A stretch of 55,585 nt of DNA from Chthonomonadaceae bacterium (GTDB taxonomy: Bacteria; Armatimonadota; Chthonomonadetes; Chthonomonadales; Chthonomonadaceae): positions 1-55,585 of the forward strand of contig DAIDHN010000026.1 of NCBI GenBank assembly GCA_027459665.1. Direction: 5' to 3'. The notes below the pieces were generated by a model, which ran no database searches, was not told the DNA's origin, and saw only the letters and a list, made by a program, of their open reading frames with translations. The position numbers and the translations under genes are program-made. Positions 1 to 55,480 of this stretch are shown piece by piece (the first letter of the stretch is position 1; every line of letters starts with the position of its first letter).

Positions 1-344
1 GTGGAATGGAAACTAGTCGGAAATGCTTCCGGACAGGTAGTACACCTGCGCTTTTAACCGCACCATTGTGGAATGGAAACTCAGGCGAATCTTCTCAAGC
101 GGGGTCATATCCCCGCCTTTTAACCGCACCATTGTGGAATGGAAACTTCTGCCCCTTGAATTTTTCAGTATCGAACGGGGCTCTTTTAACCGCACCATTG
201 TGGAATGGAAACTAATGGCGGCGTTTATGATGATATCATGGATATCATCTTTTAACCGCACCATTGTGGAATGGAAACCACAGATCTTCGAGGAGCGATT
301 CCCAGGCAGCGCTCCTTTTAACCGCACCATTGTGGAATGGAAAC
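1..344 (+). CRISPR. CRISPR array, leader-distal end, truncated by window edge
   Basis: Five identical 30-bp repeats lie at 51-80, 117-146, 183-212, 249-278 and 315-344, plus the last 13 bp of a sixth at 1-13. Each begins CTTTTAACCGCACC and ends GGAATGGAAAC. The spacers are 14-50 (37 bp), 81-116, 147-182, 213-248 and 279-314 (36 bp each), all different. Repeats ending in GAAAC are usually read in this orientation, so the leader should lie to the left of the window and the oldest spacers are seen here. No cas gene is in the window, so the subtype is open; a 30-bp repeat ending in GGAAAC recalls type I-B or III repeats. Short open frames across the array (13-330 and others) are repeat artefacts. 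Confidence 0.97.
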
Positions 345-41774: not shown

Positions 41775-41942
41775 TATTACGCCCGTGCAGCTGAATGATT
41801 TCTGCAAGAAGATGGTTTATTATACCCGTCTCTTTGCCGGGACTGAGGACGTTGTTCCTGCATTCTTACTGTCAAACAGTTTGAGGCAATATCGGGCAGC
41901 GGCAGCCCTCTGCGCCCCTCTTTCAGCGCCGACAGGCTGTTT

Positions 41943-42116
41943 CACCTCACCCCCTCGACCTGCTGTTGCACGGGGTTGAAACCCCGTGCTGATACGCCAA
42001 GCCCTCTTTGAGGGCTGCAGAGATGTGCTGTCAGCCTGCACCAGCCTTCTGGCCCCTCTTTCAGCGCCGTAAGGCGCGACCGGGAGAGGGGCAGGCCGAA
42101 AGGCCGGGGTGAGGTG
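41943..42116. mobile_element. MITE-like element, left copy, with 11-bp terminal inverted repeats
   Basis: CACCTCACCCC (41943-41953) and GGGGTGAGGTG (42106-42116) are perfect inverted ends of a 174-bp non-coding element. It contains a two-hairpin REP unit (41968-42015). Bases 41941-42074 match 55335-55468 with only three substitutions. A related end piece recurs at 42230-42262. No protein is encoded. The pair of copies brackets the 13-kb defence-like region. Confidence 0.7.
41968..42015 (+). repeat. REP element copy 1 (forward)
   Basis: First hairpin 41968-41989, with core ACGGGGTTGAAACCCCGT; linker GCTGATACGCCAA-like; second hairpin GCCCTC-TTT-GAGGGC (42001-42015). It pairs in inverted orientation with copy 2. 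Confidence 0.85.
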
Positions 42117-42171
42117 GCCTCACGCGCTGGCGGCAGTGGGCTTGCAGAGCGGCATGATGCATCGTGCATTT

Positions 42172-42219
42172 AGTCCACGCAGTGGACTTTTGCCTGTCAG
42201 AACGGGGTTTCAACCCCGT
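42172..42219 (-). repeat. REP element copy 2 (reverse)
   Basis: In reverse orientation: hairpin AGTCCAC-GCA-GTGGACT (42172-42188), linker, then hairpin ACGGGGTTTCAACCCCGT (42202-42219). With copy 1 it makes an inverted pair of about 250 bp, a REPIN-like arrangement. Confidence 0.85.
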
Positions 42220-42286
42220 GGCCGTAAGGCCGGGGTGAGGTTGCCTCACGCGCCGGCGGTAGAGAGAATGCAGAGCGGTTATGAGC

Positions 42287-43174
42287 CTAATAATCCGATT
42301 TGTTCCAGCGTTTCCAGTTATCCTTGATCAGTTTTCCTACGCCGTCAAGATCAGGAAAGATGAGTACAGGGGTAGTGCCGTAATTCGCAAGTTCGTCTGA
42401 TATGGCATCAATGCTTGACTCATCAATAAGAATCTGCTCAATGGCGCGATCCTGGCTGTTTCGCTTAAGTTCCAGTGCGAGAGAGTCGACTTCTGTGCCA
42501 AAAATAACGAAGCGGCTGCCCTGGGCATTTATTCTGCGGGAATAGTGGTCATATTCGAGAATGAGCGGCATTTTTGGCATGGGGAGTTTATTGCGCACGG
42601 TATCTTCCATTGGTAAGTATGCCATCTCCCATTCGTTCCAGTTATATTGCGTACACCGGTCTTCGGTGATGTGCTTTTGCCAGTCGCGCAGATGCTTATC
42701 TTCTGCAACACTATCTTTTAATTTGTCCTGCATTCGATCCCATTCGAGCACATATACACGTGGACTGCATGATTGATCGGTAGTTTGCAGTGCAAAATAC
42801 AGTGCGACCAGTGGCAGAACAGTCCAATCCAGAAGTCTGGTTGGTGCGCCATGGTGCTGCATCAGGAAATAGTCGTCCCAGTCCTTGTCCAACTGGTAAG
42901 ACGCCTTTTCCCTGAATTGCTCCGCCTCATGCTGAAAAAGGCGAAACTGCTGATATTCCTGGTAAATAACAGATTCCAGCGACTTCAGCCTGGAGAATGG
43001 TGCAGAGGGGCGGTAAAGCGCCGGCCGCAGGCTGGTTTGATATTCATGCGGTTCACCCCGAAACCACATTTCATCGCTGTTTCTCAAATTCCATGCATTC
43101 CGCAGATGCTGAATGACTTTCAAATATTCAAGAACAGATTTCACCGGATTGCTCAGATCACATGCCTCAGACAA
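42287..43174 (-). CDS. FRG-domain protein
   Basis: A 295-aa protein with the FRG domain (named for a conserved F/W-R-G motif). The motif is seen as MWFRGEP near residue 37, and QHHGAPTRLLDWTVLPLVALYFAL near residues 107-130 is the second conserved block. Function of the domain is unknown; FRG proteins are common in defence islands and phage-resistance loci. The TTG at 43174 has GGAGACAGG 4-9 nt upstream. It lies just inside the left MITE-like repeat, is divergent from the helicase gene and has lower GC than the upstream housekeeping genes. It could be an accessory effector of the neighbouring helicase-methylase-ATPase genes. Confidence 0.85.
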   Translation of the reverse strand: MSEACDLSNPVKSVLEYLKVIQHLRNAWNLRNSDEMWFRGEPHEYQTSLRPALYRPSAPFSRLKSLESVIYQEYQQFRLFQHEAEQFREKASYQLDKDWDDYFLMQHHGAPTRLLDWTVLPLVALYFALQTTDQSCSPRVYVLEWDRMQDKLKDSVAEDKHLRDWQKHITEDRCTQYNWNEWEMAYLPMEDTVRNKLPMPKMPLILEYDHYSRRINAQGSRFVIFGTEVDSLALELKRNSQDRAIEQILIDESSIDAISDELANYGTTPVLIFPDLDGVGKLIKDNWKRWNKSDY

Positions 43175-43629
43175 AGTACCTGTCTCCTCTCCAGTTTATT
43201 TGCATGCAGCTGTTTGTCTCTGTGAATAGAGATGAAAAAGTATTTATTAATGATGCAAAAAACTTCAGTTTTCGCTGGCAGAATGTGGTTATGCATACAC
43301 TGCCGCTCTTTCTGATGCAGATTTTTATAATTATCAATATTGTTGATGCAGTATGGCAGGACGAAAGTTTTGTGAATTATGCTGCGCCTTTGAGTTTCTG
43401 CTCTATTATTGCAGATAATGTGTATATACCTGCAATCATGCATTGCTTGTGGTGCCATCTTGTTTCTGTTTGCTGGCAGGTATGTGCTGCCATCATCCCA
43501 TTCAGGCGATACAGCCTGAGAACCTGCCTGAAATAACCTTTCAACGGCTAAAATATCTTATCACAACAGGGTAAATACAATCAAACTGTTCACTTGCACA
43601 GTGAGCGGTACTACAAAGCGAGGGTGTTA
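43175..43629. promoter_or_regulatory. AT-rich divergent region between FRG and helicase genes
   Basis: This 455-bp stretch is clearly more AT-rich than its surroundings. Open frames in it lack ribosome sites and protein-like composition. It must contain promoters for both flanking genes; TAAAAT and TACAAT occur upstream of the helicase but without good -35 boxes. No repeat or RNA gene was recognised. Confidence 0.3.
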
Positions 43630-46600
43630 ATGAAACTGGAGGAACTGCAAGCGAATGCGATCGTTAAAGGGGTTGTGCAGGACCAGCTCGTCACAGTAAT
43701 TGGCGTGATCTGGCATGGCAGTGCGGCTATAGAACTTACGTACAAAACTGCGGACGGGCGACCGGCGGCGATTGTGTTGTACCGTACCGATGAAGAACGG
43801 CTAAGCCTTGCCCAGGAGGGCCTGCCATGGAGCTTCGATAGCAACGGTTCTAAGTTTCGCCTGGTAGCGGAGGCCAACCGAATTCACCTCGCTTACCTGT
43901 TTGACCCTGTTCTGGCCGTTCATACATCGCAGGTTGAGCCGCTCCCGCATCAAATTACGGCAGTGTACGAGGAGATGTTGACAAGGCAGCCACTTCGGTT
44001 CCTTCTCGCCGATGATCCAGGCGCTGGCAAGACCATCATGGCGGGCTTATTAATACGCGAGCTTATCGTGCGCGGCGACCTTCAGCGCTGCCTCATTGTA
44101 TGCCCCGGTTCATTAGCCGAACAGTGGCAGGATGAACTGCACCGCCGGTTTCAGCTTAAATTCGATATCGCCACCAACGACCAATTAGAAGCTGCACACA
44201 CTGGTAACTGGTTCATTGAGCACAATCTAGTAATAGCTCGACTAGATAAATTAAGCCGTAACACCGATCTCCAGGAGAAGTTGAAGGCACCCGATGCGTT
44301 CTGGGACCTTGTGGTGTGTGATGAAGCGCACAAGTTGTCGGCCACTCAATTCGGTGACGAGGTGAAGTATACAAAGCGATACCAATTGGGTCAGCTGCTT
44401 TCGAGGGTAACTCGGCACTACCTGTTAATGACCGCTACTCCACATAACGGCAAAGACATCGATTTTCAACTCTTCATGGCGCTGCTGGATGGTGATAGAT
44501 TTGAGGGCCGCCACCGTGACGGTGCGCATACGGTAGACGCATCCGATATGATACGAAGGATGGTGAAGGAAGACCTGCTGCGCTTTGATGCAACACCGCT
44601 ATTCCCCGAACGGCGCGCCTACACTGTGCCGTACAAGCTCACGGATGGTGAGGCGGCCCTCTACAAAGAGGTCACGGAATACGTTAAAGAAGAGTACAAT
44701 CGAGCCGAAAAGCTGCAAAACAAGAGCCGCACCGGGACCATTGGCTTTGCACTCACCATACTGCAGCGCAGATTGGCGTCCTCGCCCGAAGCCATACTTA
44801 CATCACTTATCAATAGGCGCGAAAAGCTGGAGCGGAAGCTGCGCGAAACACAGCTATTGCACCGAGGTGGGCAGGCTGCTGAACGCCAGGTTGTATCAAA
44901 CCAGACATTGGCCGACGACGATATTGATGAACTGGATGACGTTACTGAAACGGAGATGGACCAGGTTGAAAACGAGGTTCTGTACCAGGCAACCGCAGCA
45001 AACACCATTGCAGAACTTAAAATCGAAATTGAGACCCTGAAGAAATTGGAGGGGATGGCCGCCGCGGTACGGCGGTCCGGAGAGGACAGAAAGTGGTCTG
45101 AACTCTCAACGTTACTCAACGATATATTCACTCCTAATGGATTCGCCGCACAGGTAGGCGAAGGTCGCGCATCCTACGGCAACGAGATTAAACCCGTTTT
45201 TGCTCCCACGCAAAAGCTGGTAATTTTTACCGAACACCGAGATACTCTGCGTTACTTACATGAACGCATCAGCACCCATACGGGCAGGGCGGATGCGATT
45301 GTAGAAATACATGGTAGTATGGGGCGCGAGGCCAGGATGGCTGCCCAAGAGGCATTCCGACACGACCCCAACGTGCGAATACTGCTCGCTACGGATGCCG
45401 CAGGGGAGGGGATTAATCTTCAACGCGCGCACCTGATGGTAAATTACGACCTTCCATGGAACCCCAATCGACTGGAACAGCGCTTTGGGCGAATCCATCG
45501 CATTGGACAAACCGAGGTATGCCACTTGTGGAATTTGGTTGCGGATGAGACCCGCGAAGGTGAGGTCTACAGAGCACTGTTTGAAAAGCTGGAAGAGGCA
45601 CGTAGCGCGTTGGGCGGCCGTGTTTACGACGTGCTGGGCGATATGGTATTCGATGGCAAACCGTTGCGCGATCTCCTGCTAGAGGCAATTCGCTACGGCG
45701 AGCGCCCCGAGGTACGCATGCGTCTTTCACAGGCGGTCGCAAACGCGTTAGATCGTGGTCGTCTCCAGTCCCTGCTAAACAACCGCGCCATTGCCCATGA
45801 CGTCATGAACGCCGAGCGGGTATTTAACATTCGCAGGGAGATGGAGCGCGCTGAGGCTCGCAGGCTGCAGCCTCACTACATCGAGTCATTTTTCCTGGAG
45901 GCCCTTTCGGTACTTGGCGGCAGCTGCCGCAGGAGGGAATCACGGCGGTATGAGGTTACCCACGTGCCGGCGGTCATCCGTGAGCGAGACCGTCAAATCG
46001 GCTTCGGCGAGCCAGTGCTTAGCAAATACGAGCGCATCGCATTCGACAAATCGATGGTGGCTGCCCAGCCGCCAGCAGCATTTATCTACCCAGGACACCC
46101 TCTGCTTAACTCCATGCTGGATCTCATTTTGGAACAGAACAGATCACTGCTAAAACAGGGCACAGTGTTGGTAGATGATGCCGATTACGGTACAGAGCCA
46201 AGAGTGCTTTTCATACTGCAGCACGATGTTCAAGATGGTAGTACGACGCGTAGCGGGGACATGCGAACAATATCCCGCCGGATGGTTTTTGTGGAGATAC
46301 AACGCGACGGTGCTACCCGCCACCTCTCCTATGCGCCGTATTTGGACTACCGGCCACTGGCCGAATCTGAGCCAACGGCCCTTGAGATTGCCAGCAGCCC
46401 TTTGTGCCAGTGGATTAATCGCAACATGGAGCGGACGGCACTGACACACTGTATTGAGCACCTGGTGCCTGCTCACCTAAGTGAGGTGCGCGAACGAAGG
46501 CTGGGGCTGCTCGAGAAGACCGAGGCAGCCGTTAAAGAGCGTCTCACCCGCGAAATCACCTATTGGGATCATCGCGCAGAGGTGCTACGGAATGAAGAGT

Positions 46601-47199
46601 ACTCTGGGCGCAGCAACGCGCACCTCAACTCTGGGGAGGCTCGCAAGCGAGCGGACCAGCTTCAGGAGCGAATGAAACAGCGGCTGGCAGCTATTCAACA
46701 GGAGAAGCAGCTCACCGCCCGGTCACCGCAGGTAATCGGTGGGTTGTTGGTGGTGCCCGCGGGACTCGTTGCGCAACTAATGGGTACGCCGGCGCCCACG
46801 GGCATGCCCGTTGAAACTGCAGAATCGGCCAGGCGTGCGCGAGAGATTGTAATGAAAGTGGAACGTGAACTTGGCTTCGAGCCCGAGGATCGTGAGACGG
46901 ATCGACTTGGCTATGACTTGGAAAGCAGCATACCGGGCACAGGCCGATTGCGATTCATTGAGGTCAAGGGCCGAGATGCCTCGGCTGAAACCATCACAGT
47001 GACCTGCAATGAGGTACTTACCGCGCTCAACAAGCCGGACGATTACATCCTAGCCATTGTGCTGTTCTATGGCGACAAACATACCGTTCACTATGTACGG
47101 CGGCCATTCACACGCCAACCAGACTTTGGCGTCACTACCATGGAGTATCGGTTAAATGGCGCAGAGGGCCTGCTTCCACGCGCCACGGTTCCCTGTTAG
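43630..47199 (+). CDS. SNF2-type helicase with DUF3883-like C-terminus (Hma-type helicase)
   Basis: A 1189-aa superfamily 2 helicase. The ATG at 43630 has GAGGG 7 nt upstream; a TTG at 43594 in frame lacks one. Walker A is DDPGAGKT (K134), Walker B VVCDEAH (D231), motif III MTATPHNG, and the C-terminal RecA domain has LLATDAAGEGINLQ and QRFGRIHRIGQ, all intact. A coiled middle region lies at about residues 360-460. The last 90 residues (GFEPEDRETDRLGYDLES ... RFIEVKGR) match DUF3883, which resembles a PD-(D/E)xK nuclease core with E-x-K. With the DUF1156 methylase and DUF499 ATPase downstream it forms the known Hma (helicase-methylase-ATPase) set. It faces the other two genes instead of running with them. 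Codon use differs from the secretion genes. Confidence 0.9.
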   Translation: MKLEELQANAIVKGVVQDQLVTVIGVIWHGSAAIELTYKTADGRPAAIVLYRTDEERLSLAQEGLPWSFDSNGSKFRLVAEANRIHLAYLFDPVLAVHTSQVEPLPHQITAVYEEMLTRQPLRFLLADDPGAGKTIMAGLLIRELIVRGDLQRCLIVCPGSLAEQWQDELHRRFQLKFDIATNDQLEAAHTGNWFIEHNLVIARLDKLSRNTDLQEKLKAPDAFWDLVVCDEAHKLSATQFGDEVKYTKRYQLGQLLSRVTRHYLLMTATPHNGKDIDFQLFMALLDGDRFEGRHRDGAHTVDASDMIRRMVKEDLLRFDATPLFPERRAYTVPYKLTDGEAALYKEVTEYVKEEYNRAEKLQNKSRTGTIGFALTILQRRLASSPEAILTSLINRREKLERKLRETQLLHRGGQAAERQVVSNQTLADDDIDELDDVTETEMDQVENEVLYQATAANTIAELKIEIETLKKLEGMAAAVRRSGEDRKWSELSTLLNDIFTPNGFAAQVGEGRASYGNEIKPVFAPTQKLVIFTEHRDTLRYLHERISTHTGRADAIVEIHGSMGREARMAAQEAFRHDPNVRILLATDAAGEGINLQRAHLMVNYDLPWNPNRLEQRFGRIHRIGQTEVCHLWNLVADETREGEVYRALFEKLEEARSALGGRVYDVLGDMVFDGKPLRDLLLEAIRYGERPEVRMRLSQAVANALDRGRLQSLLNNRAIAHDVMNAERVFNIRREMERAEARRLQPHYIESFFLEALSVLGGSCRRRESRRYEVTHVPAVIRERDRQIGFGEPVLSKYERIAFDKSMVAAQPPAAFIYPGHPLLNSMLDLILEQNRSLLKQGTVLVDDADYGTEPRVLFILQHDVQDGSTTRSGDMRTISRRMVFVEIQRDGATRHLSYAPYLDYRPLAESEPTALEIASSPLCQWINRNMERTALTHCIEHLVPAHLSEVRERRLGLLEKTEAAVKERLTREITYWDHRAEVLRNEEYSGRSNAHLNSGEARKRADQLQERMKQRLAAIQQEKQLTARSPQVIGGLLVVPAGLVAQLMGTPAPTGMPVETAESARRAREIVMKVERELGFEPEDRETDRLGYDLESSIPGTGRLRFIEVKGRDASAETITVTCNEVLTALNKPDDYILAIVLFYGDKHTVHYVRRPFTRQPDFGVTTMEYRLNGAEGLLPRATVPC

Positions 47200-47351
47200 C
47201 CAAGCGAAGTCGCGATAAGCGCAGTGACTCTTAAGTCAGCAGGTAGGGATAATTACTCCGCAGCATAAATCACGCATAATTCCCGCTGTACATCGTGTAC
47301 CACTCCTTTTGTGCTGCCGACACTGTTTATTCGCCAACGAGGATACGACCT

Positions 47352-47777
47352 ATGCCAAGTTCGCATACCGAAGTGTATGTCCATTTTGTCTGGACGACCC
47401 AAAACAGGCAGCCCATTATCACGACAGATTATGAAGAACCGCTCTACAAATTCATTCGTTCGCGCTGCCAGAAAATGCAGGCACACATAACTGCCATTGG
47501 CGGCATGCCAGACCATGTCCACCTGCTCATAAGAATGCCGCCGTCATTGTCAATTTCCCAGGTTGCACAAGATATAAAGGGCAGTTCCAGCCACTTTGTC
47601 GCACATGCACTGGGGCAACGCGATTTCCGCTGGCAAGGCGCATACGGAGCATTCAGCGTCGGGAAGAATGCGTTAGAGTCCGTTACCTATTACATCGAGA
47701 ATCAAAAAATCCACCATGGCGCGCACACGATTCATCGTGATTGGGAACCCGCTGACGTTATTGACAACCCGTCCTAA
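47352..47777 (+). CDS. Y1 transposase, IS200/RAYT-like (REP-associated tyrosine transposase)
   Basis: A 141-aa HUH single-strand transposase. The metal-binding HUH motif is H55-V-H57 in GGMPDHVHLLI, and the nucleophile is probably Y114 in YYIENQKIHH. The length and motifs fit the Y1_Tnp family, which includes IS200 TnpA and RAYT proteins that mobilise REP sequences. The ATG at 47352 has GAGGA 8 nt upstream. No tnpB gene accompanies it. REP elements 3-7 start 56 bp after its stop, which is the hallmark of a RAYT rather than a plain IS200. A dyad TGACT-CTTA-AGTCA lies upstream near 47223. It sits between the helicase and methylase genes. Confidence 0.9.
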   Translation: MPSSHTEVYVHFVWTTQNRQPIITTDYEEPLYKFIRSRCQKMQAHITAIGGMPDHVHLLIRMPPSLSISQVAQDIKGSSSHFVAHALGQRDFRWQGAYGAFSVGKNALESVTYYIENQKIHHGAHTIHRDWEPADVIDNPS

Positions 47778-47832
47778 CTGGCACCTGGTATTGGGTTGCC
47801 CTTCGCACGGCGATTCACACACGGGGTTGTAC

Positions 47833-47882
47833 GCACGGGGTTGAAACCCCGTGCTGATACGCGAAGCCCGCACAAGCGGGCT
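47833..47882 (+). repeat. REP element copy 3 (forward)
   Basis: Hairpin 47833-47854 with core ACGGGGTTGAAACCCCGT, linker CTGATACGCGA, hairpin AGCCCGC-ACAA-GCGGGCT (47865-47882). It is the first REP after the transposase. Confidence 0.9.
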
Positions 47883-48001
47883 GCCGGAGGGCGCGCTGAT
47901 CGAAGGGTACGCGGGCAATGGGATGTGGGTGCGTCCGCACGCTCGGCGATTTTCGCCTATTGGGTTGCCCTTCGCACGGCGATTCACACACGGGATTGTA
48001 C

Positions 48002-48050
48002 GCACGGGGTTAAACCCCGTGCTGATACGCGAAGCCCGCACAAGCGGGCT
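48002..48050 (+). repeat. REP element copy 4 (forward)
   Basis: Same as copy 3 but one base shorter in the first loop; hairpins 48002-48022 and 48033-48050. It forms an inverted pair with copy 5. Confidence 0.9.
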
Positions 48051-48166
48051 GCCAGAGGGCGCGCTGATCGGAGGGTATGCGGCTATTGGCGTTTGCGCGA
48101 ATGAATGCACCGTGGTCCACACGCGAATCGGCCAATTACGAGTACACCGAGCAGGCTATTGCATTT

Positions 48167-48215
48167 AGCCCACAACGTGGGCTTTTGCGTATCAGAACGG
48201 GGTTTCAACCCCGTT
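48167..48215 (-). repeat. REP element copy 5 (reverse)
   Basis: Reverse orientation: AGCCCAC-AAC-GTGGGCT (48167-48183), linker, then AACGGGGTT-TC-AACCCCGTT (48196-48215). The second stem differs from that of copy 4 by compensated bases, so the hairpin itself seems to be conserved. Confidence 0.9.
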
Positions 48216-48356
48216 CGCAAATAACGCCGTTCGCAAACAACCCCGTTCGTGCACCGCCGCGTTCGAAATCAACCCCGTTTGTTGGCGATTGCATTTGTGA
48301 TCAACCGCGCCCAACAACCCCCCGCCCCGTTCACCGCCAACCCCGGCTGTCACCAA
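48209..48356 (-). repeat. decaying 16-bp tandem array joined to REP copy 5
   Basis: Units resembling CCCCGTTCGCAAACAA start at 48209, 48225, 48241, 48257, 48273 and 48289, then after a 20-bp unit at 48325 and 48341. Agreement with the consensus fades away from the REP. The first unit overlaps the CCCCGTT arm of the REP hairpin. Confidence 0.75.
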
Positions 48357-48475
48357 CCGCAAATATCCGAGTGCGCACCTGCGTGGGTTGAATGCGTGCC
48401 AAGGCGGTTTCAATGGGTTTTTTCGCATTGCATTATGCGTACCCGCTTGTACACATTGCGTTTGTGATCGCGGGG

Positions 48476-48546
48476 GTGAACGCACGGGGTTGTCCACGCG
48501 GGGATGGTACACACGGGGGTGTACGCACGGGGGTGTACGCACGGGG
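48476..48546 (+). repeat. 14-bp tandem array joined to REP copy 6
   Basis: Five units ending in CGGGG occupy 48476-48489, 48490-48502/3, 48503-48518, 48519-48532 and 48533-48546. The last two are identical (GTGTACGCACGGGG). The array runs straight into the ACGGGG arm of REP copy 6 and mirrors the array of copy 5. Confidence 0.8.
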
Positions 48547-48588
48547 GTGAAACCCCGTACTGATACGCGAAGCCCGCACGAGCGGGCT
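48541..48588 (+). repeat. REP element copy 6 (forward)
   Basis: Hairpin ACGGGG-GTGAAA-CCCCGT (48541-48558), linker, hairpin AGCCCGC-ACGA-GCGGGCT (48571-48588). It pairs in inverted orientation with copy 7 about 120 bp away. Confidence 0.9.
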
Positions 48589-48708
48589 GCCAGACGGTGC
48601 TCAAGTCGGGGGGCTATGCGGGTAATGGGGCGTGCGTGAAGAAACCGACCCGGCACCAGACGCACACCAGCCGACTACGACGCGCAGGCCCGGCAGGCTA
48701 TTGCATCT

Positions 48709-48757
48709 AGCCCACAACGTGGGCTTTTGCATATCAGAACGGGGTTTCAACCCCGTT
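48709..48757 (-). repeat. REP element copy 7 (reverse)
   Basis: AGCCCAC-AAC-GTGGGCT (48709-48725), linker, then AACGGGGTT-TC-AACCCCGTT (48738-48757). Degenerate CCGTTCG units follow up to the methylase stop at 48845. Confidence 0.9.
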
Positions 48758-48844
48758 CGCATGCATCTCCGTTCGGTCACCGCCCCGTTCGCAAACAACG
48801 CCATCCCCGCACCCAGAGCGGCAACAACCCGATCGGGGTGGTTC

Positions 48845-51718
48845 CTACACCTCCATCGCGCCTTGTGGATTTGCCGAGGGCTCTTCCTTCGCAAGCCTGG
48901 CGATCTCCTGCCAGCTCTGAATGAGTTCGTTGTACCATTGCCCCTCTTTTGATTGGCCCCCGCGTTCGCAGAGAAGATATAAACGGTAGGGCAGCTCCTT
49001 TGCGAGCACGCAGGCAGGGCCAAGCGCCTTCATGACCTCGGCGGCGGCGGTCTCACCGCGTTCGAGAGCGTGCACAAGCTGGTGCAATGCTTCCCAAACT
49101 GTTACCGCACCGTGATTGCCGATATCATCAAGTGGGCGGAGTTCGTTGGGCTGCAGCAGGCGTACTTTGCCGTGTACGGCCTCCGCGATGCCGGCGTTGA
49201 CCATGACCTCCACGCTGACGTTTTTCGCCTTGGAGAGCGTCTCCGCTTCGCCGTACAGCCCGGCATCGAAACCGTGCTGCCTAAACCAGTTGAGCGCCCA
49301 AATGGTGCCGGGGTCGAAATCCGACTCCTGCTCGCCCAGCACCTCATCCAGTTCGCGGTTGATGACCCGCAGCACATCCCCCACGGTGAGAGGGGATCCA
49401 TTGGTATCAATCACCTGACGGTAACGGCTGTAAACCGCCATGCCTGGGCCAATCGCTGCCTGCTGCATGTCTACCGGCGCGATACCGCCCTGCTGCAGGT
49501 CGCGGATGGCGCTGCACATCTCCCGCTTCAGCGCCAGCTGAAACTCACGCCGCGTGGCTATAGGCAGGTCCGCTGCACGGCGGTGACAGACCAGCACAAT
49601 GCTGGAGGCAAGAGCATTAGTTCCCATGCCGATCATTCGATTGGACATTTCTGTACGCATGGGCCATGTGCCTGTAATGCCAAGCCCCGCACTGATCACC
49701 GCATCCAGAAAGGTCTCCCAGCCCGTGCTGCCCGTGGCGCCGTCACCGTCCGTTTTGCTCTGCTTGAACGCGTAATAGATAGTTATGGGGAATGCCGGGT
49801 GCGCCTGGATGGCGAGGTTGGCCATGGCATCCCTCATGCCCGCCAGAAAAAACTGTTCTGCACCCTTTTTACCGCCATGCCGGAACGGCGTCGCCACCAG
49901 CTCTTCATCCTTCGGCACGGCGACTGTGGCAAGCAGGCTGGGGAATATATCACGAAGGGACCGACGCAACCAGACGTAGAGAAAATCAGAAAGATCTGCG
50001 TAGCCGATGTTATCGTAATAAGGCGGATCCGTAGAAACGACCTTGTTTATACTTACGTGCTGAGATTGTGCTGCCGCCTGATTTGCAGTGCCCATTTCGG
50101 TAAACTTATGGCCACCGATGAACTTCGGCACCCAGCCCAGCATTCCGGCCCAACCGCCTGAAGAGTCACTGCAAGGGTTTGCCTCAGCAAAATCCCATGT
50201 CATTGGGATCGCCTGTCTACCGAACGTGTTCCTTATTAACTCTCTCGAGCCATGCCACGTGCAAATCGATGACCAATAGTCCGCGCACTTGTCAACGGCG
50301 AAGGCGAGGTAGGTTGCAACGGCATCCCCGTACGCCGCTGCCCCGCTGCCGCCATCCTCGAGCCGCACGCCGTCGTCAGCAAGGCCGGCAGCAACGGCAT
50401 CGCGCACGGCACGGTCCCGCGCCTCACTCACGAGCATACTGAACGTGTTAAGCGCGGTAAGCTGCCTCGGCGTGAAGAGATCATCCCAGTAAAGCATGCC
50501 GTATTCCTGTACTCGAAATCCTAGCGCCCTCGCCGGTAAAGCTGAGGAATGTTCTTTCTCTTCTAGCGGTATATTGATTGCGTTTGCCAGATCACTGTCT
50601 GAACCAAGGTAAATCCGTCCGCCATCACCATCCAAAACCATTGCAAGCATGCACGAACCCAGCCTCTTCGCCTTTCCCTCCTCTCGTACATAGTCGAAAG
50701 ATATGGGTGTACCTGAAAGGAGGCAGCTGAAACCACCATTTTTACCAGATGTTTTTGTACCCGAATTTGCGTTCAGGCTAGCGGGTGGTTTGCCCACTTT
50801 TACCTCGAAGCGGTATCCATCGTTCTCTTTCACCGGCTCGACGTACGCCTCTTTACCCGGTTTGGTAGAGAGCATAAAAGTAGCAGCGAGAGGTACATCG
50901 ACATGCCGAAAAGCCGGGTTTGGGCTTTTTACGGTGCGCGCCCAGAGCCAGGCAATCACGGTGAGGCTCCGCCCCACATACCTCTTTAGGTCGGGGCGGG
51001 TTTTCGCCATCTCCTCGGTAATCGTCACCGTGGGGTAGAGGTGACCAATGCGCCGCTGCGCCTCCTCACGCATCCAGCTGCCATAGTAGCGAACATCGTC
51101 GGCCAGCCCCTGCGCGCCGTTCCAGGTGATCATACCGCACTTTCCCTCGGCGGCAGGGTTCACAGCCGCTCTGTTGGCAAATCGCGGTGGAATCTCGATC
51201 ATCGCCTTATTAATGAGAACTGCCACAGGGTTAAGGTCGCTGGCATAGGCCTGCAGCCCAAGCCGCTGCGCCTCCAGCGGAATGCTGCCGCCGCCGGCAA
51301 ACGGGTCGTGCAAGGCTGGGACGTTTGAAGGATTGAAGAGCGTAGCCGCATCCGGATGGTTTGCGTTATCGCGGCAAGCCCGCTGCCAGCTCCGCACGAT
51401 CTCGGCATGCGCTCGTGCCAGCAGCTTTTCATTGTTGCTGTTCTCCCACACCACCAGCTCCTCCAGCAACCGAAAAAGCCTCTCCCGTTCCACCTCCTGC
51501 TCCCTCGCCGTGGGAAACTCGTCCGGGCAGGCACTGGGGTCATCCACCATCTGCGCAAAGATGACCGCGCGGGCAGTAGCGAGCGGCCGCCGCGCCCACC
51601 AGAGATGGAGGGTACTGGGATGGCCGTGCCGAATCGATTTCTCGCGAACCGAAGCTTCGTTGATCGCCTTGAGCGGCAGCGATACCTCAATCAGCTTCTT
51701 ACGGGCTATAGTGGTCAT
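48845..51718 (-). CDS. DUF1156 adenine-specific DNA methylase (Hma-type methylase)
   Basis: A 957-aa predicted N6-adenine DNA methyltransferase. The N-terminal DUF1156 region has VREKSIRHGHPSTLHLWWARRPLA. SAM-binding motif I is DPFAGGGS (residues 138-145) and the catalytic motif is D564-P-P-Y in STDPPYYDNIGY. So the order is I before IV, as in amino-methyltransferases of the gamma/beta type, with a large insert between. No restriction nuclease domain is fused. The ATG at 51718 has GGGAG 5-6 nt upstream. It lies 74 nt downstream of the ATPase gene in the same direction, so the two form one operon. With the helicase it makes the Hma set. A role in marking self DNA is inferred. Confidence 0.92.
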   Translation of the reverse strand: MTTIARKKLIEVSLPLKAINEASVREKSIRHGHPSTLHLWWARRPLATARAVIFAQMVDDPSACPDEFPTAREQEVERERLFRLLEELVVWENSNNEKLLARAHAEIVRSWQRACRDNANHPDAATLFNPSNVPALHDPFAGGGSIPLEAQRLGLQAYASDLNPVAVLINKAMIEIPPRFANRAAVNPAAEGKCGMITWNGAQGLADDVRYYGSWMREEAQRRIGHLYPTVTITEEMAKTRPDLKRYVGRSLTVIAWLWARTVKSPNPAFRHVDVPLAATFMLSTKPGKEAYVEPVKENDGYRFEVKVGKPPASLNANSGTKTSGKNGGFSCLLSGTPISFDYVREEGKAKRLGSCMLAMVLDGDGGRIYLGSDSDLANAINIPLEEKEHSSALPARALGFRVQEYGMLYWDDLFTPRQLTALNTFSMLVSEARDRAVRDAVAAGLADDGVRLEDGGSGAAAYGDAVATYLAFAVDKCADYWSSICTWHGSRELIRNTFGRQAIPMTWDFAEANPCSDSSGGWAGMLGWVPKFIGGHKFTEMGTANQAAAQSQHVSINKVVSTDPPYYDNIGYADLSDFLYVWLRRSLRDIFPSLLATVAVPKDEELVATPFRHGGKKGAEQFFLAGMRDAMANLAIQAHPAFPITIYYAFKQSKTDGDGATGSTGWETFLDAVISAGLGITGTWPMRTEMSNRMIGMGTNALASSIVLVCHRRAADLPIATRREFQLALKREMCSAIRDLQQGGIAPVDMQQAAIGPGMAVYSRYRQVIDTNGSPLTVGDVLRVINRELDEVLGEQESDFDPGTIWALNWFRQHGFDAGLYGEAETLSKAKNVSVEVMVNAGIAEAVHGKVRLLQPNELRPLDDIGNHGAVTVWEALHQLVHALERGETAAAEVMKALGPACVLAKELPYRLYLLCERGGQSKEGQWYNELIQSWQEIARLAKEEPSANPQGAMEV

Positions 51719-51792
51719 GAGGACTCCCAAATGAGGATTGACCGACCTGCAGCTTGGTCGGAAATAACAACAAACTGGCGCACCAGTGCTGC

Positions 51793-54700
51793 CTATTCGA
51801 AGCCTTGCGTTTTAAACTTAAGGTCGCGGCTGTTCTGGGTGACGATGCGCACAAGTTTGTCGGGTACGCCCGCCGGCGCTTCCACATCAATCTCGAGGGT
51901 CACCGTTACTTTCGCGCCTAACAGGCCAGATAGGTGCGCGATAATCTCGTCGGCTATGCGCGATGCGTCGCGCCCGGCCCGTTCCGCGTCCAGCTGCACG
52001 GTGCCATGGAACCGTGTTGGGGTACGCGGCGCAGCAGGGGCTGGCGCCGCATAGGGCGCTCCCGGCAGACGCATCGGCGGCAGTTGACCAACATTAGAAG
52101 GGGCCATAGCTTCGATTGATGCAAACCCGGGTGACTCCGTACCCTCGGTGGCAATGAAATCAGGCTGCATGGCTCGGGCTGCCGCCTCGGTGAGCAATTG
52201 CTCTCTGGCTGCCTCGGCCTTCACAACCAGTCCACCGGAGTCGGCCGTAATCACGTGATGTTCGCCCGCACGCAGCCCCAGATACCTTCGCGTGACCTCT
52301 TCGAACCCCTCGGCGAATGCAAAGGTGTCGGCTTCCCACGTGAGCAGCGCCACGCCATCGGTTACTGCCTTTGCCACGGCTTGCGGTCCTATTAGTCGGG
52401 GCAAGTAGAGATAGCGCGCAAAATCGTCGATCAGCTGCGAAAGCGCAACGTGTCGCCCGTCATTGTCGCGCCACAGCGGGATCTCGTCAAGACTGCGCCG
52501 CAGGACAATGGCGCCTAGCTCGGCTGCTAGCAGGTCTTCGCTTTTTAATTTTCGGTAGACGCGTTCCGCCAGTGTGTCACCGCCGCTCACTTTCATCGCC
52601 TGCCACTCCACTTTAGCGCGCGGATTATCCTGGCCAGGTACCAATAGCCATTGGTAAACCTCTGGCAGCATCGCATCAACCCGTGAATTGGCCTCGCCGC
52701 ACTGCTTTGTGGCCTGTTTACTCTGTTGCGCGGTGAGATTAAACCGTTCGGGATCGTCAGCAATCGTCTTCCACGCCAGGTAATCACACACATGCGCGAA
52801 AATACCTTCCAGTTTTGCTCTATCCGCAGCCAGAAATACGAGCGTGTTTTGGTAAAGGCGCGCACCGGTGCCGCGGGTCTCTAATAGTCCCTTTGCAGTC
52901 TCCATCGCACTGCTTTCGGTATCCTTGGCGTACTCCGCGTCTGGCGGCAGCACCACTAACCGGACCTCGCGCTCGTCCGCCACGTCGCCGCTCGACTTTG
53001 GCGCGCAATGGACGGCGGCGAACTGTCCACGCTGTTTCGCCGCTGTGCGCAACCGTGCCTCCAGGTCTTCATAGACGGCAGGCTGGTTGCGCCTAATCTG
53101 AGCGGCCAATTCTTCGGCCGTCCGCCTGATAGAGGGGCTGGTATCAAACCAGTAGCGATTGTTATCGCTATAGAGGTGAGTAGCCTTGCCCGTAATTCGG
53201 CGCAACGCATCACCAAAGGTCGCAGGTGGCTCGCCAGGCATAACTGTTCCAAGTTTAATCTGCACATCGGCCAGGCCCTTGTTTGCCGCACCGGTAGTGG
53301 GCGCAGAGCCTAGAAACACCGTTCGAGCGGCACGCCGACATGCCTCCAGCTTGCCCAGACTGGAGACTTCGCTATCGATGGTCGCCGGCAGCGAGTCGCG
53401 GCCGTCCACCTCCTTTGCAATCACCGCATGCCACTCATCGGGCAGATACCGGCAGAGCTCAAACTGAACCTGCTTCTCGCTCACCGGAATTGTGCAAGGC
53501 ATGATAAGTGGATTGTGATCGCCAGAGACCCACAACTCATGAATAACAGATGCCATGAGCCGCAACACGCCTCGGGTGCGCTGAAATCGGGGAAGCGCGG
53601 ACCAGTCCCCGTAGAGTCGTTCAAACACCTCTGGGTGAATGGGATAGGCCGCAATAATTCGCTTCTCGTAATCTGTGGTTTGGCACTCCGGCGGAAACTC
53701 ACCGCGATTGCTCGTGTAGAGTTCATAGAATGCCCGTGCAACGACATCACGCAGTTTGAAATTCTCGGCTTCAACAATGGGATCAAACAGGCGCCGTCTT
53801 ACAATCTCAAACCCCTCTTCCGCGGTGGCGGGCCGCCACGACGAGTCCAGGCGCCCCACCACATTTCGCAGCCGATCTAACGCTGCCCTGCCGCGCTGAC
53901 CACCAACCTCGATGTCAGCGGTCTCAACGTGAGACATTAGCCCCGTATCGCTCGCCGGAAGGCTCACCAACAGCACGCAATTACTCGTAAGCTTTACAGC
54001 CTCGGTAAGCGCCTGCGCGAAGGTGAATTGGGTTTCGAACGTGCCGCCAGGCAGACCGGGTTCATCATGAAGTTGACGGGCGTAAGCCACCCATTCGTCA
54101 ATCAGAATCACCGCAGGGCCGTACGTGTTCAGTAGGACCCTCAGGTTGTCACCCGGGTTCGTAGCATTCTCATCGTCTTTTTCAATGACAGCATAGGCCT
54201 CAGCGCCGCCTAGCTGCCAGGCAAGCTCACCCCAAAGCGTTCGCACCTTGATACCGCCGGGCTTGGCATCCGGGTTGCCGGGTGAAATCTTGTTCCCTAC
54301 CAGCACCACACGCTTTGCCCGGGGAAGTTCATCCACACAGGCGTCGCGTAGGATCTCATCTAAACCTGCAAGCTGCGAAGGTGACCCACCATGCGCCGCA
54401 TGGAACACCGCGAGCATTGAGTGGGTTTTGCCCCCACCAAAATTGGTCTGCAGCTGCACCACCGGGTCGCCGCCGGATTGGCCGGCCAGTCGCCGCACGG
54501 TAGAGACCAACAACCGCTTAAGGCTGTCGGTAAGGTAGGTCCGTCTGAAAAACTCCGCTGGCTCGCGGTATTCGGGCGTACCCTCGCCCAGGTAGACCTG
54601 CCAGAGGTCCGCGGCAAATTCCGCCTGCTGAAACATGCCGTCCATCACATCCTGGTGTGGTGTAATGACATCCCGCCATGCCGGCAGTTTCTTCGCCAGC

Positions 54701-55179
54701 GCGCTCTCCACAGCCGCCGACTGTTTGCGCATTTCGCTTCGCGTCTCTTCCTCATAGCGCTGGCGCAGCAGTTCCTTCTTCATCTTTGCTACTTCCGCGG
54801 CCTCGGGGGCAGAAACAGCGTTGAGCAGCCTTTCGACAGAGTCGAGGGCGCGGTAGGCATCATCTTTCGTGAACTGTTTCTGGTGCGCCCAGTCGTTTCG
54901 AGTAGTGCGGAGTTCCGAGACAATGCTTCGTTCACCGTGGCCCAGCGTCTGATTGAACACGGAATTCCACTGATCCCATAGGAGCCGGAGGAGCGCTTGC
55001 GCATCCAGATGCGGCTTATCATCCGGTCCCCAGTCAACATCACGTGCCCACTGCTCGGTGCACGAAGTAATCCAGTAATTACCATACTTTGCCGATAGCT
55101 CCCGCTCGACGAACGGCAAAAGCCCATTCCGCAGAAGTTCCAGCGCTTTGCCTACGCGTTCAACATTCGATTGTGCCAT
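51793..55179 (-). CDS. DUF499 AAA+ ATPase with N-terminal HEPN domain (Hma-type ATPase)
   Basis: A 1128-aa P-loop protein. Residues about 1-120 match the Swt1-type HEPN domain, with the RNase-like motif R94-NDWA-H99 (Rx4H). The DUF499 ATPase core has Walker A FGGGKTH (K251) and Walker B VILIDEW (D361-E362). The C-terminal 150 residues are beta-rich and end in a DUF499-typical segment, after a Pro/Ala-rich linker near residues 1050-1075. The ATG at 55179 has a weak upstream AGGA; no better start is seen. The upstream region is AT-rich and has TTGACA on minus at 55267-55262, but no well-spaced -10 box. First gene of the ATPase-methylase operon. It may sense invading DNA and use the HEPN part as an RNase; this is inference. 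Confidence 0.9.
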   Translation of the reverse strand: MAQSNVERVGKALELLRNGLLPFVERELSAKYGNYWITSCTEQWARDVDWGPDDKPHLDAQALLRLLWDQWNSVFNQTLGHGERSIVSELRTTRNDWAHQKQFTKDDAYRALDSVERLLNAVSAPEAAEVAKMKKELLRQRYEEETRSEMRKQSAAVESALAKKLPAWRDVITPHQDVMDGMFQQAEFAADLWQVYLGEGTPEYREPAEFFRRTYLTDSLKRLLVSTVRRLAGQSGGDPVVQLQTNFGGGKTHSMLAVFHAAHGGSPSQLAGLDEILRDACVDELPRAKRVVLVGNKISPGNPDAKPGGIKVRTLWGELAWQLGGAEAYAVIEKDDENATNPGDNLRVLLNTYGPAVILIDEWVAYARQLHDEPGLPGGTFETQFTFAQALTEAVKLTSNCVLLVSLPASDTGLMSHVETADIEVGGQRGRAALDRLRNVVGRLDSSWRPATAEEGFEIVRRRLFDPIVEAENFKLRDVVARAFYELYTSNRGEFPPECQTTDYEKRIIAAYPIHPEVFERLYGDWSALPRFQRTRGVLRLMASVIHELWVSGDHNPLIMPCTIPVSEKQVQFELCRYLPDEWHAVIAKEVDGRDSLPATIDSEVSSLGKLEACRRAARTVFLGSAPTTGAANKGLADVQIKLGTVMPGEPPATFGDALRRITGKATHLYSDNNRYWFDTSPSIRRTAEELAAQIRRNQPAVYEDLEARLRTAAKQRGQFAAVHCAPKSSGDVADEREVRLVVLPPDAEYAKDTESSAMETAKGLLETRGTGARLYQNTLVFLAADRAKLEGIFAHVCDYLAWKTIADDPERFNLTAQQSKQATKQCGEANSRVDAMLPEVYQWLLVPGQDNPRAKVEWQAMKVSGGDTLAERVYRKLKSEDLLAAELGAIVLRRSLDEIPLWRDNDGRHVALSQLIDDFARYLYLPRLIGPQAVAKAVTDGVALLTWEADTFAFAEGFEEVTRRYLGLRAGEHHVITADSGGLVVKAEAAREQLLTEAAARAMQPDFIATEGTESPGFASIEAMAPSNVGQLPPMRLPGAPYAAPAPAAPRTPTRFHGTVQLDAERAGRDASRIADEIIAHLSGLLGAKVTVTLEIDVEAPAGVPDKLVRIVTQNSRDLKFKTQGFE

Positions 55180-55336
55180 TGTAGAGAAACTGTCCTGTTT
55201 ACGGAACTGTTTTTTTGATATTATTACTCTAGCACATTGTGTACAGTATAAATAACACATCTGTCAAAAAAACCAATTTGTAACGTATGTGGCCGCAGGG
55301 CCTTTTTCTCCGGTATGACGTCTCTGGTTAGCAGTT

Positions 55337-55480
55337 CACCTCACCCCCTCGACCTGCTGTTGCACGGGGTTGAAACCCCGTGCTGATACGCCAAGCCCTC
55401 TGCGAGGGCTGCAGAGATGTGCTGCCAGCCTGCACCAGCCTTCTGGCCCCTCTTTCAGCGCCGTAAGGTCGGGGTGAGGT
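55337..55480. mobile_element. MITE-like element, right copy
   Basis: It starts with the same CACCTCACCCC (55337-55347) and ends with GGGGTGAGGT (55471-55480). Compared with the left copy it lacks about 30 bp near the right end. 55335-55468 matches 41941-42074 at 131 of 134 positions, in the same orientation. Confidence 0.7.
55362..55409 (+). repeat. REP element copy 8 (forward)
   Basis: Hairpin 55362-55383 with the ACGGGGTTGAAACCCCGT core and hairpin GCCCTC-TGC-GAGGGC (55395-55409). It is the REP core of the right MITE-like copy. No reverse partner is seen before the window ends. Confidence 0.88.

Follow-up and report, generated by a model that had tools for sequence, protein, structure and literature searches.

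A TnpA_Y1 subclass 1.2 transposase and its probable two-hairpin REPs and REPINs in an Armatimonadota genome

REP and REPIN systems have so far been tied to class 2 transposases, the RAYTs. The sister subclass 1.2 has been set aside as one without IS ends or REPs. The window analyzed here (55,585 nucleotides) is the entire contig C26 of an Armatimonadota genome (G000; 3.67 Mb, 99.9% complete, 118 contigs). Its family is probably Chthonomonadaceae, as the tnpA catalogued under that name comes from G007, a genome of the same family. It carries the gene of a 141-aa HUH transposase followed by a cluster of hairpin repeats, which a preliminary description read as a RAYT-like transposase with its own REPs in REPIN pairs. 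Is the enzyme a RAYT, and are the repeats its own? Very probably, the locus unites the transposase gene and the clustered end repeats of a family of small single-strand mobile elements whose enzymes belong to TnpA_Y1 subclass 1.2; the REPs would be the ends, and the REPINs gene-less pairs that TnpA would move in trans. Judged from the sequences, the best reading is a REP/REPIN system that belongs to a lineage of single-strand transposases other than the RAYTs; it would work as a RAYT–REPIN system does but is not a member of that group. The RAYT label is wrong in descent and right in the way of working. The preliminary description knew of no such system in this background; a literature search that included the exact hairpin strings also found no prior description, with subscription papers mostly outside its reach.

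Class of the transposase

The gene was characterized with profiles, a tree and a predicted fold.
47352 to 47777, forward strand: tnpA, intact gene of a 141-aa TnpA_Y1 subclass 1.2 transposase with the motifs DHVH, WQ and YIENQKIHH

PF01797 identified the protein as a Y1/HUH transposase (E 3.7e-30), in agreement with the preliminary description. DHVH and Y114 were intact. The protein passed the NCBIfam model for IS200/IS605 transposases (NF033573, 91.7 versus 55 bits) and failed that for REP-associated tyrosine transposases (NF047646, REP_Tyr_transpos, 42.6 bits versus a cut-off of 80). RAYTs have a tyrosine followed by NP(L/V)(R/K)xG (PMC2817692). The window protein reads YIENQKIHH, that is Y---Q--HH, and the RAYT motif Y---NP was absent. 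Its nearest solved-structure sequences were IS200/IS605 transposases, with no TnpA_REP among the matches. The predicted monomer (pLDDT 91) matched IS200/IS605 TnpA with hairpin DNA at Z 14–15 and the TnpA_REP structure 4er8 at Z 11.6.

In a tree of 103 proteins, TnpA fell in subclass 1.2 (89 rows), sister to IS200/IS605, and RAYT-like proteins formed a third group. The eight IS200/IS605 references stood on one side (support 92), subclass 1.2 on the other (89) and class 2 apart (SH-aLRT 99); the tree came from a quick search method, the 89/92 support is moderate and class 2 has long branches. RAYT membership was rejected on the missing Y---NP, the score below the NF047646 cut-off and the position outside class 2. 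As far as its sequence tells, the protein is on the IS200/IS605 side in descent, in class 1, subclass 1.2, and it has the Y---Q--HH, the WQ and the short length of that subclass.

Quentin et al. 2018 described subclass 1.2 as mostly from Cyanobacteria and Bacteroidetes, without REPs and generally without terminal hairpins (PMC6006769). Their automatic REP search required a GT[AG]G tag (PMC6006769), and the window REP family does not carry it. A placement in an IS200 clade that does not act on REPs had been named as grounds against the preliminary reading. The protein is indeed in a clade so described, but the bracketed genes, covariance-model matches and copy counts given below contradict the description.

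REPs in the window and in the genome

Eight REPs were located in the window. All were matched by the covariance model R1 (see below).
41964 to 42024 (41970), forward strand: left-end type, resident subfamily (AGCCCTC/GAGGGCT, TGTTGC before)
42164 to 42225 (42192–42219), reverse strand: right-end type, resident subfamily (AGTCCAC/GTGGACT)
47829 to 47889 (47835), forward strand: left-end type, island subfamily (inner hairpin AGCCCGC/GCGGGCT)
47997 to 48057 (48003), forward strand: left-end type, island subfamily, REPIN partner of 48159–48220
48159 to 48220 (48187), reverse strand: right-end type, island subfamily (AGCCCAC/GTGGGCT)
48535 to 48595 (48541), forward strand: left-end type, island subfamily, partner of 48701–48762
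48701 to 48762 (48729), reverse strand: right-end type, island subfamily
55358 to 55418 (55364), forward strand: left-end type, resident subfamily, eighth copy

The seven copies of the preliminary list, five of them at 47835–48729 behind tnpA, were all recovered; the list was incomplete by the copy at 55364(+). All eight were two-hairpin units, each made of an ACGGGG..CCCCGT hairpin, a linker of the CTGATACGC or CTGACAGGC type and a second hairpin, as had been proposed. Six lay in three inverted pairs, the same pairs (1/2, 4/5 and 6/7) named before. Folded as single strands, the copies each formed two hairpins (z −3.3 to −7.4), and the resident pair at 41964–42225 (about 260 bp), modeled as one strand, formed one long hairpin (z −8.0). 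The compensating bases reported between forward and reverse second stems were also found: in the 47.8–48.8 kb cluster, AGCCCGC/GCGGGCT of the forward copies is replaced by AGCCCAC/GTGGGCT in the reverse copies, a compensated change. Inverted pairing, the one-hairpin fold and dispersal in the genome agree with the definition of REPINs. The feet of the hairpins were TGTTGC, TATGCC and GTACGC; the GT[AG]G tag of RAYT REPs was not among them. An Rfam scan of 41.5–55.6 kb matched no family at E 1. A second repeat (GGCCGAAAGGCCGGGGTGAGG..) was interleaved with the REPs and formed mosaics with them at 42094–42278 of the window and in many REP flanks of the genome.

A count of the 28-nt REP core gave 30 matches genome-wide versus 0 for a reversed-pattern control. 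With the independent covariance-model matches, this indicated that the REPs were not due to chance. As 14 of the 30 copies were within 250 bp of a contig end (0.5 expected), the count is a minimum. The genome total was about 35, the majority resembling the ends of a second, bracketed tnpA on contig C24. Read by eye from the listed sequences, the resident subfamily counted 16 left and 13 right ends; a partial copy and the five island copies made up the rest. Left ends had the form ACGGGGTTGAAACCCCGT-G-CTGAYACGCC-AAGCCCTC..GAGGGCT, usually with TGTTGC in front. Right ends, on the other strand, had the form ACGGGGTTGAAACCCCGT-T-CTGACAGGCA-AAAGTCCAC..GTGGACT with TATGCC in front. The five island REPs had a different inner hairpin and were found only at 47.8–48.8 kb, beside the window tnpA.

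The genome held two Y1 genes, the window tnpA and the C24 tnpA (70% identical), in keeping with the low genomic copy number of subclass 1.2. The C24 tnpA had a left end (131) on one side and an inverted right end (864) on the other, giving an element of about 735 bp, and R1 matches bracketed it at 133–177(+) and 817–862(−). The C24 copy is an autonomous element. Therefore, the REPs are transposon ends, and the REPINs are gene-less elements. The RAYT trait of a gene flanked by two inverted REPs was thus seen at C24. The window tnpA has REPs downstream and is not bracketed: a full-model scan with filters off gave no credible left end upstream of it (best 4.0 bits).

An imperfect direct repeat (about 46 bp; 64–112 and 873–920) flanked the C24 element (L032). 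The source of this repeat is the 3′-terminal part of the upstream gene, and it is far longer than usual target duplications.

Ends, boundaries and copy numbers in relatives

Eighty relatives from about fifteen phyla were compared, nearly all with Y---Q--HH. Inverted repeats between the upstream and downstream flanks (score ≥14) bracketed tnpA in 53 of 77 relatives, compared with 14/308 crossed flanks and 1/64 far flanks at the same score. Bracketing was found in both branches of the subclass, 1.2a (29/47) and 1.2b (24/30). The arms of 1.2a shared a plan of outer hairpin (TGAA-type loop), linker like GGCAACAACGGCACAA and inner hairpin AGNCNNC-CTNC-GNNGNCT. Their stems covaried, with changes on both sides in 9 of 12 pairs, in arms that had been picked for having hairpins. 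The covariance model R1 was built from 31 arms of other genomes, none from G000. It recovered all eight window REPs (21.5–31.7 bits, E 1.4e-4 to 1.7e-7), and its matches bracketed tnpA in G046, G034, G036 and G035.

On contig C10 of G035 (L120), three tandem REPINs with a 128-bp period stood on either side of tnpA, like the E. coli REPtron. The 1.2b genes (Verrucomicrobiota, Planctomycetota, Bacteroidota and others) had two- or three-hairpin ends of different sequence (L073, L102, L088, L105, L112, L087, L094 and L098), some GGTAG-tagged and some of the form CCCCGTAGGGG..ATATCAATAGAAA.

Boundaries were read from 54 ends at 32 sites in G046, where most copies were inverted pairs of roughly 130–160 bp. 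Conservation was high up to position −5 (GCCCG, 70–98% per position), faded at −6 and all but vanished farther out. The flanks outside the TGCCCG next to the outer hairpin were mutually unrelated. By their sequence, such sharp boundaries fit discrete transposition units, not duplication of longer segments.

REP numbers were then compared with the presence of tnpA. In every one of the 17 genomes from other phyla that have a 1.2a tnpA (Chloroflexota, Cyanobacteriota, Gemmatimonadota, Thermomicrobiota and Poribacteria; 8 of the 17 gave R1 no arm), R1 counted between 4 and at least 150 copies. Five genomes from other branches of subclass 1.2 had 0 R1 copies. Among 251 Armatimonadota genomes, at least 10 copies were found in 20 of the 32 that have a strong tnpA versus 19 of the 219 others (p = 3e-11), and by family in 13/14 versus 5/30 (p = 2e-6); these p-values are guides only, as species are not independent, the highest counts are lower bounds and the tally by family was put together manually from listed rows. 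Twelve of the 32 tnpA genomes had fewer than 10 R1 matches, partly because their ends diverge from R1; G000 itself scores 0 under the strict R1 filter.

The expectation that copy number follows the transposase thus held overall, and a strict one-to-one presence was rejected, as 13 of the 172 genomes without any A3-detected tnpA kept at least 10 copies. REPs at the same density without the transposase had been named as a possible refutation. Some genomes do keep REPs without the transposase, yet the overall association is strong. Some of the 13 held only other, class-2-like Y1 genes. G001 had 16 REPs of its own type and no detected Y1 transposase, and in G164 a fragment of a truncated tnpA lay close to a REP. 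The repeats appear to last longer than the enzyme, leaving remnant populations in genomes that lack the gene.

In G049 (contig C49, L181) and G062, another arrangement was observed: the top G049 REPs are in the opposite order, with outer hairpins a few nucleotides apart in mid-unit, resembling a joint of right end and left end. No subclass 1.2 tnpA was found in G049.

Proposed mechanism, alternatives and defense-island setting

In a full element, of which this genome has one copy (on C24), tnpA lies between a left end made of outer hairpin, linker and inner hairpin and a right end with these parts in inverse order. REPINs would be left–right end pairs minus the gene, a kind of MITE, each able as one strand to fold into a single long hairpin. 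Most likely, TnpA binds to the hairpins of the ends when the DNA is single-stranded; it would cleave near the foot of the outer hairpin and would move its own gene and, in trans, the gene-less pairs. Such a mode of action is known for IS200/IS605 and proposed for RAYTs (PMC8266576). The genome has two tnpA genes and also two REP subfamilies, which are told apart by their inner hairpins; the C24 ends correspond to the resident subfamily. We infer the binding, the cleavage chemistry, the strand specificity and the assignment of TnpA to a subfamily.

The system resembles RAYT/TnpA_REP of E. coli, Pseudomonas and Stenotrophomonas in having a Y1 transposase gene among many palindromic repeats, a gene-specific REP subfamily and inverted pairs that fold as one hairpin. 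It is unlike them in its subclass 1.2 Y---Q--HH, two-hairpin REPs and lack of GTAG, whereas RAYTs are class 2 with Y---NP. A genuine class 2 RAYT with its REP/REPIN family would fit the multi-copy inverted pairs, the cluster adjoining the gene, the REPINs on both sides of tnpA in G035 and the fold match to 4er8. It is very improbable, given the missing NP motif, the score below the REP_Tyr_transpos cut-off, the lack of TnpA_REP among the solved-structure sequence matches, the tree, the absent GTAG tag and the two hairpins per REP. Of the preliminary reading, the REPIN-like architecture and the multi-copy repeats belonging to a Y1 transposase stand, and the RAYT-like descent does not (motif, NF047646, tree, no GTAG). 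An ordinary subclass 1.1 (IS200/IS605) insertion sequence, accompanied by a few copies that are decayed or miniature, is also unlikely, though less so; the NF033573 score and the closest solved structures speak for it. IS608, ISDra2 and IS200 share with the window family the fold, the HUH and Y motifs, a short core-only protein and hairpin-bearing ends. Against this, the window family is a sister clade of subclass 1.1 and not inside it. IS200/IS605 elements lack terminal inverted repeats, but the C24 element and its relatives have mutually inverted two-hairpin ends. The genome has only two copies of tnpA versus about 35 REPs, gene-less pairs dominate, and the examined stretch of the window showed no tnpB.

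Host-maintained palindromes (terminators, supercoiling or mRNA-stability elements), to which tnpA is only secondarily near, would explain the many copies without subclass 1.2 tnpA in G033, G049, G060, G071, G089, G096, G103, G115, G121, G182, G224, G226 and G240. We consider this quite improbable, since ends bracket tnpA across phyla, the association is strong at genome and family level, element boundaries are sharp, and the truncated tnpA of G164 fits enzyme loss with persisting repeats. A spread of the repeats without transposition, in longer segments that were duplicated or exchanged by homologous recombination, could have produced the tandem arrays at 47.8–48.8 kb and on contig C2 of G020 and the 134-bp repeats around the Hma island described below. 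The 32 G046 sites, where conservation stops at TGCCCG just outside the outer hairpin between unrelated flanks, make such a spread hardly credible.

The preferred reading, a subclass 1.2 element family with REPs as ends, was also compared with two published groups. Subclass 1.2 (PMC6006769) agrees in Y---Q--HH, WQ, length, low copy number and clade, and differs in that the present family has REPs and terminal hairpins and occurs in many more phyla. TIRYTs/TIRtrons (Di Nocera et al. 2013, PMC3733652) likewise have a Y1 gene with inverted terminal repeats, some of them self-complementary and multi-copy; unlike the window protein, most of their transposases are of class 2.1 and carry HTH-like domains at the C-terminus, and the repeat sequences differ (PMC3733652).

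Data from several phyla support the link of two-hairpin REPs with subclass 1.2 in branch 1.2a, and the link is plausible for the subclass as a whole. With less confidence than for the locus itself, we think it probable that all of subclass 1.2 is a further REP-associated single-strand transposase lineage, apart from RAYTs and with its own two- or three-hairpin REPs. Much of the stock of two-hairpin intergenic repeats in Armatimonadota, Chloroflexota, Gemmatimonadota, Cyanobacteriota and, with other sequences, Bacteroidota and the Planctomycetota–Verrucomicrobiota group would then stem from this lineage, and in some genomes its repeats would bracket defense cassettes. If subclass 1.2 genes have cognate two-hairpin REPs in tens to more than 100 copies, REPIN formation extends to, or re-arose in, the IS200/IS605 side. 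Abundant repeats that have lacked an explanation, in phyla with hardly any description of REPs, would then have a named origin, and defined protein–DNA pairs would be at hand for testing how the tie between a transposase and its own repeats comes about.

REP-flanked defense cassettes were seen in two cases, which make no rule. On contig C46 of G020 (L262, 3784–7013), an AbiLi/AbiLii-like pair (PADLOC) had two-hairpin REPINs on both sides. This 2.8-kb block was missing at the orthologous place in G025 (contig C4, L278), a region without REPs. The comparison gave no base-exact junction, the insertion being a 2.8-kb block in diverged intergenic DNA.

The other case is the setting of the window locus, whose genes below are context outside the element.
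41941 to 42074, forward strand: left boundary of the Hma island, a 134-bp direct repeat containing a left-end REP of the resident subfamily, 98% identical to 55335–55468
43594 to 47199, forward strand: hmaA, helicase of the Hma defense system (PDLC00659, 1625 bits)
48845 to 51730, reverse strand: hmaB, DNA-adenine methylase (defense-system profile)
51793 to 55260, reverse strand: hmaC, AAA+ ATPase (defense-system profile)
55335 to 55468, forward strand: right boundary of the Hma island, a 134-bp direct repeat containing a left-end REP of the resident subfamily, 98% identical to 41941–42074

The window tnpA and five REPs sit between hmaA and hmaB. Because the inner hairpin of these REPs differs from the resident one, their sequences suggest that they came in with the island. 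Between the 134-bp repeats (41941–55468), HmaA, HmaB and HmaC are complete and accompanied by an FRG-domain gene (PDC-S15), as if the whole island were bracketed by REPs.
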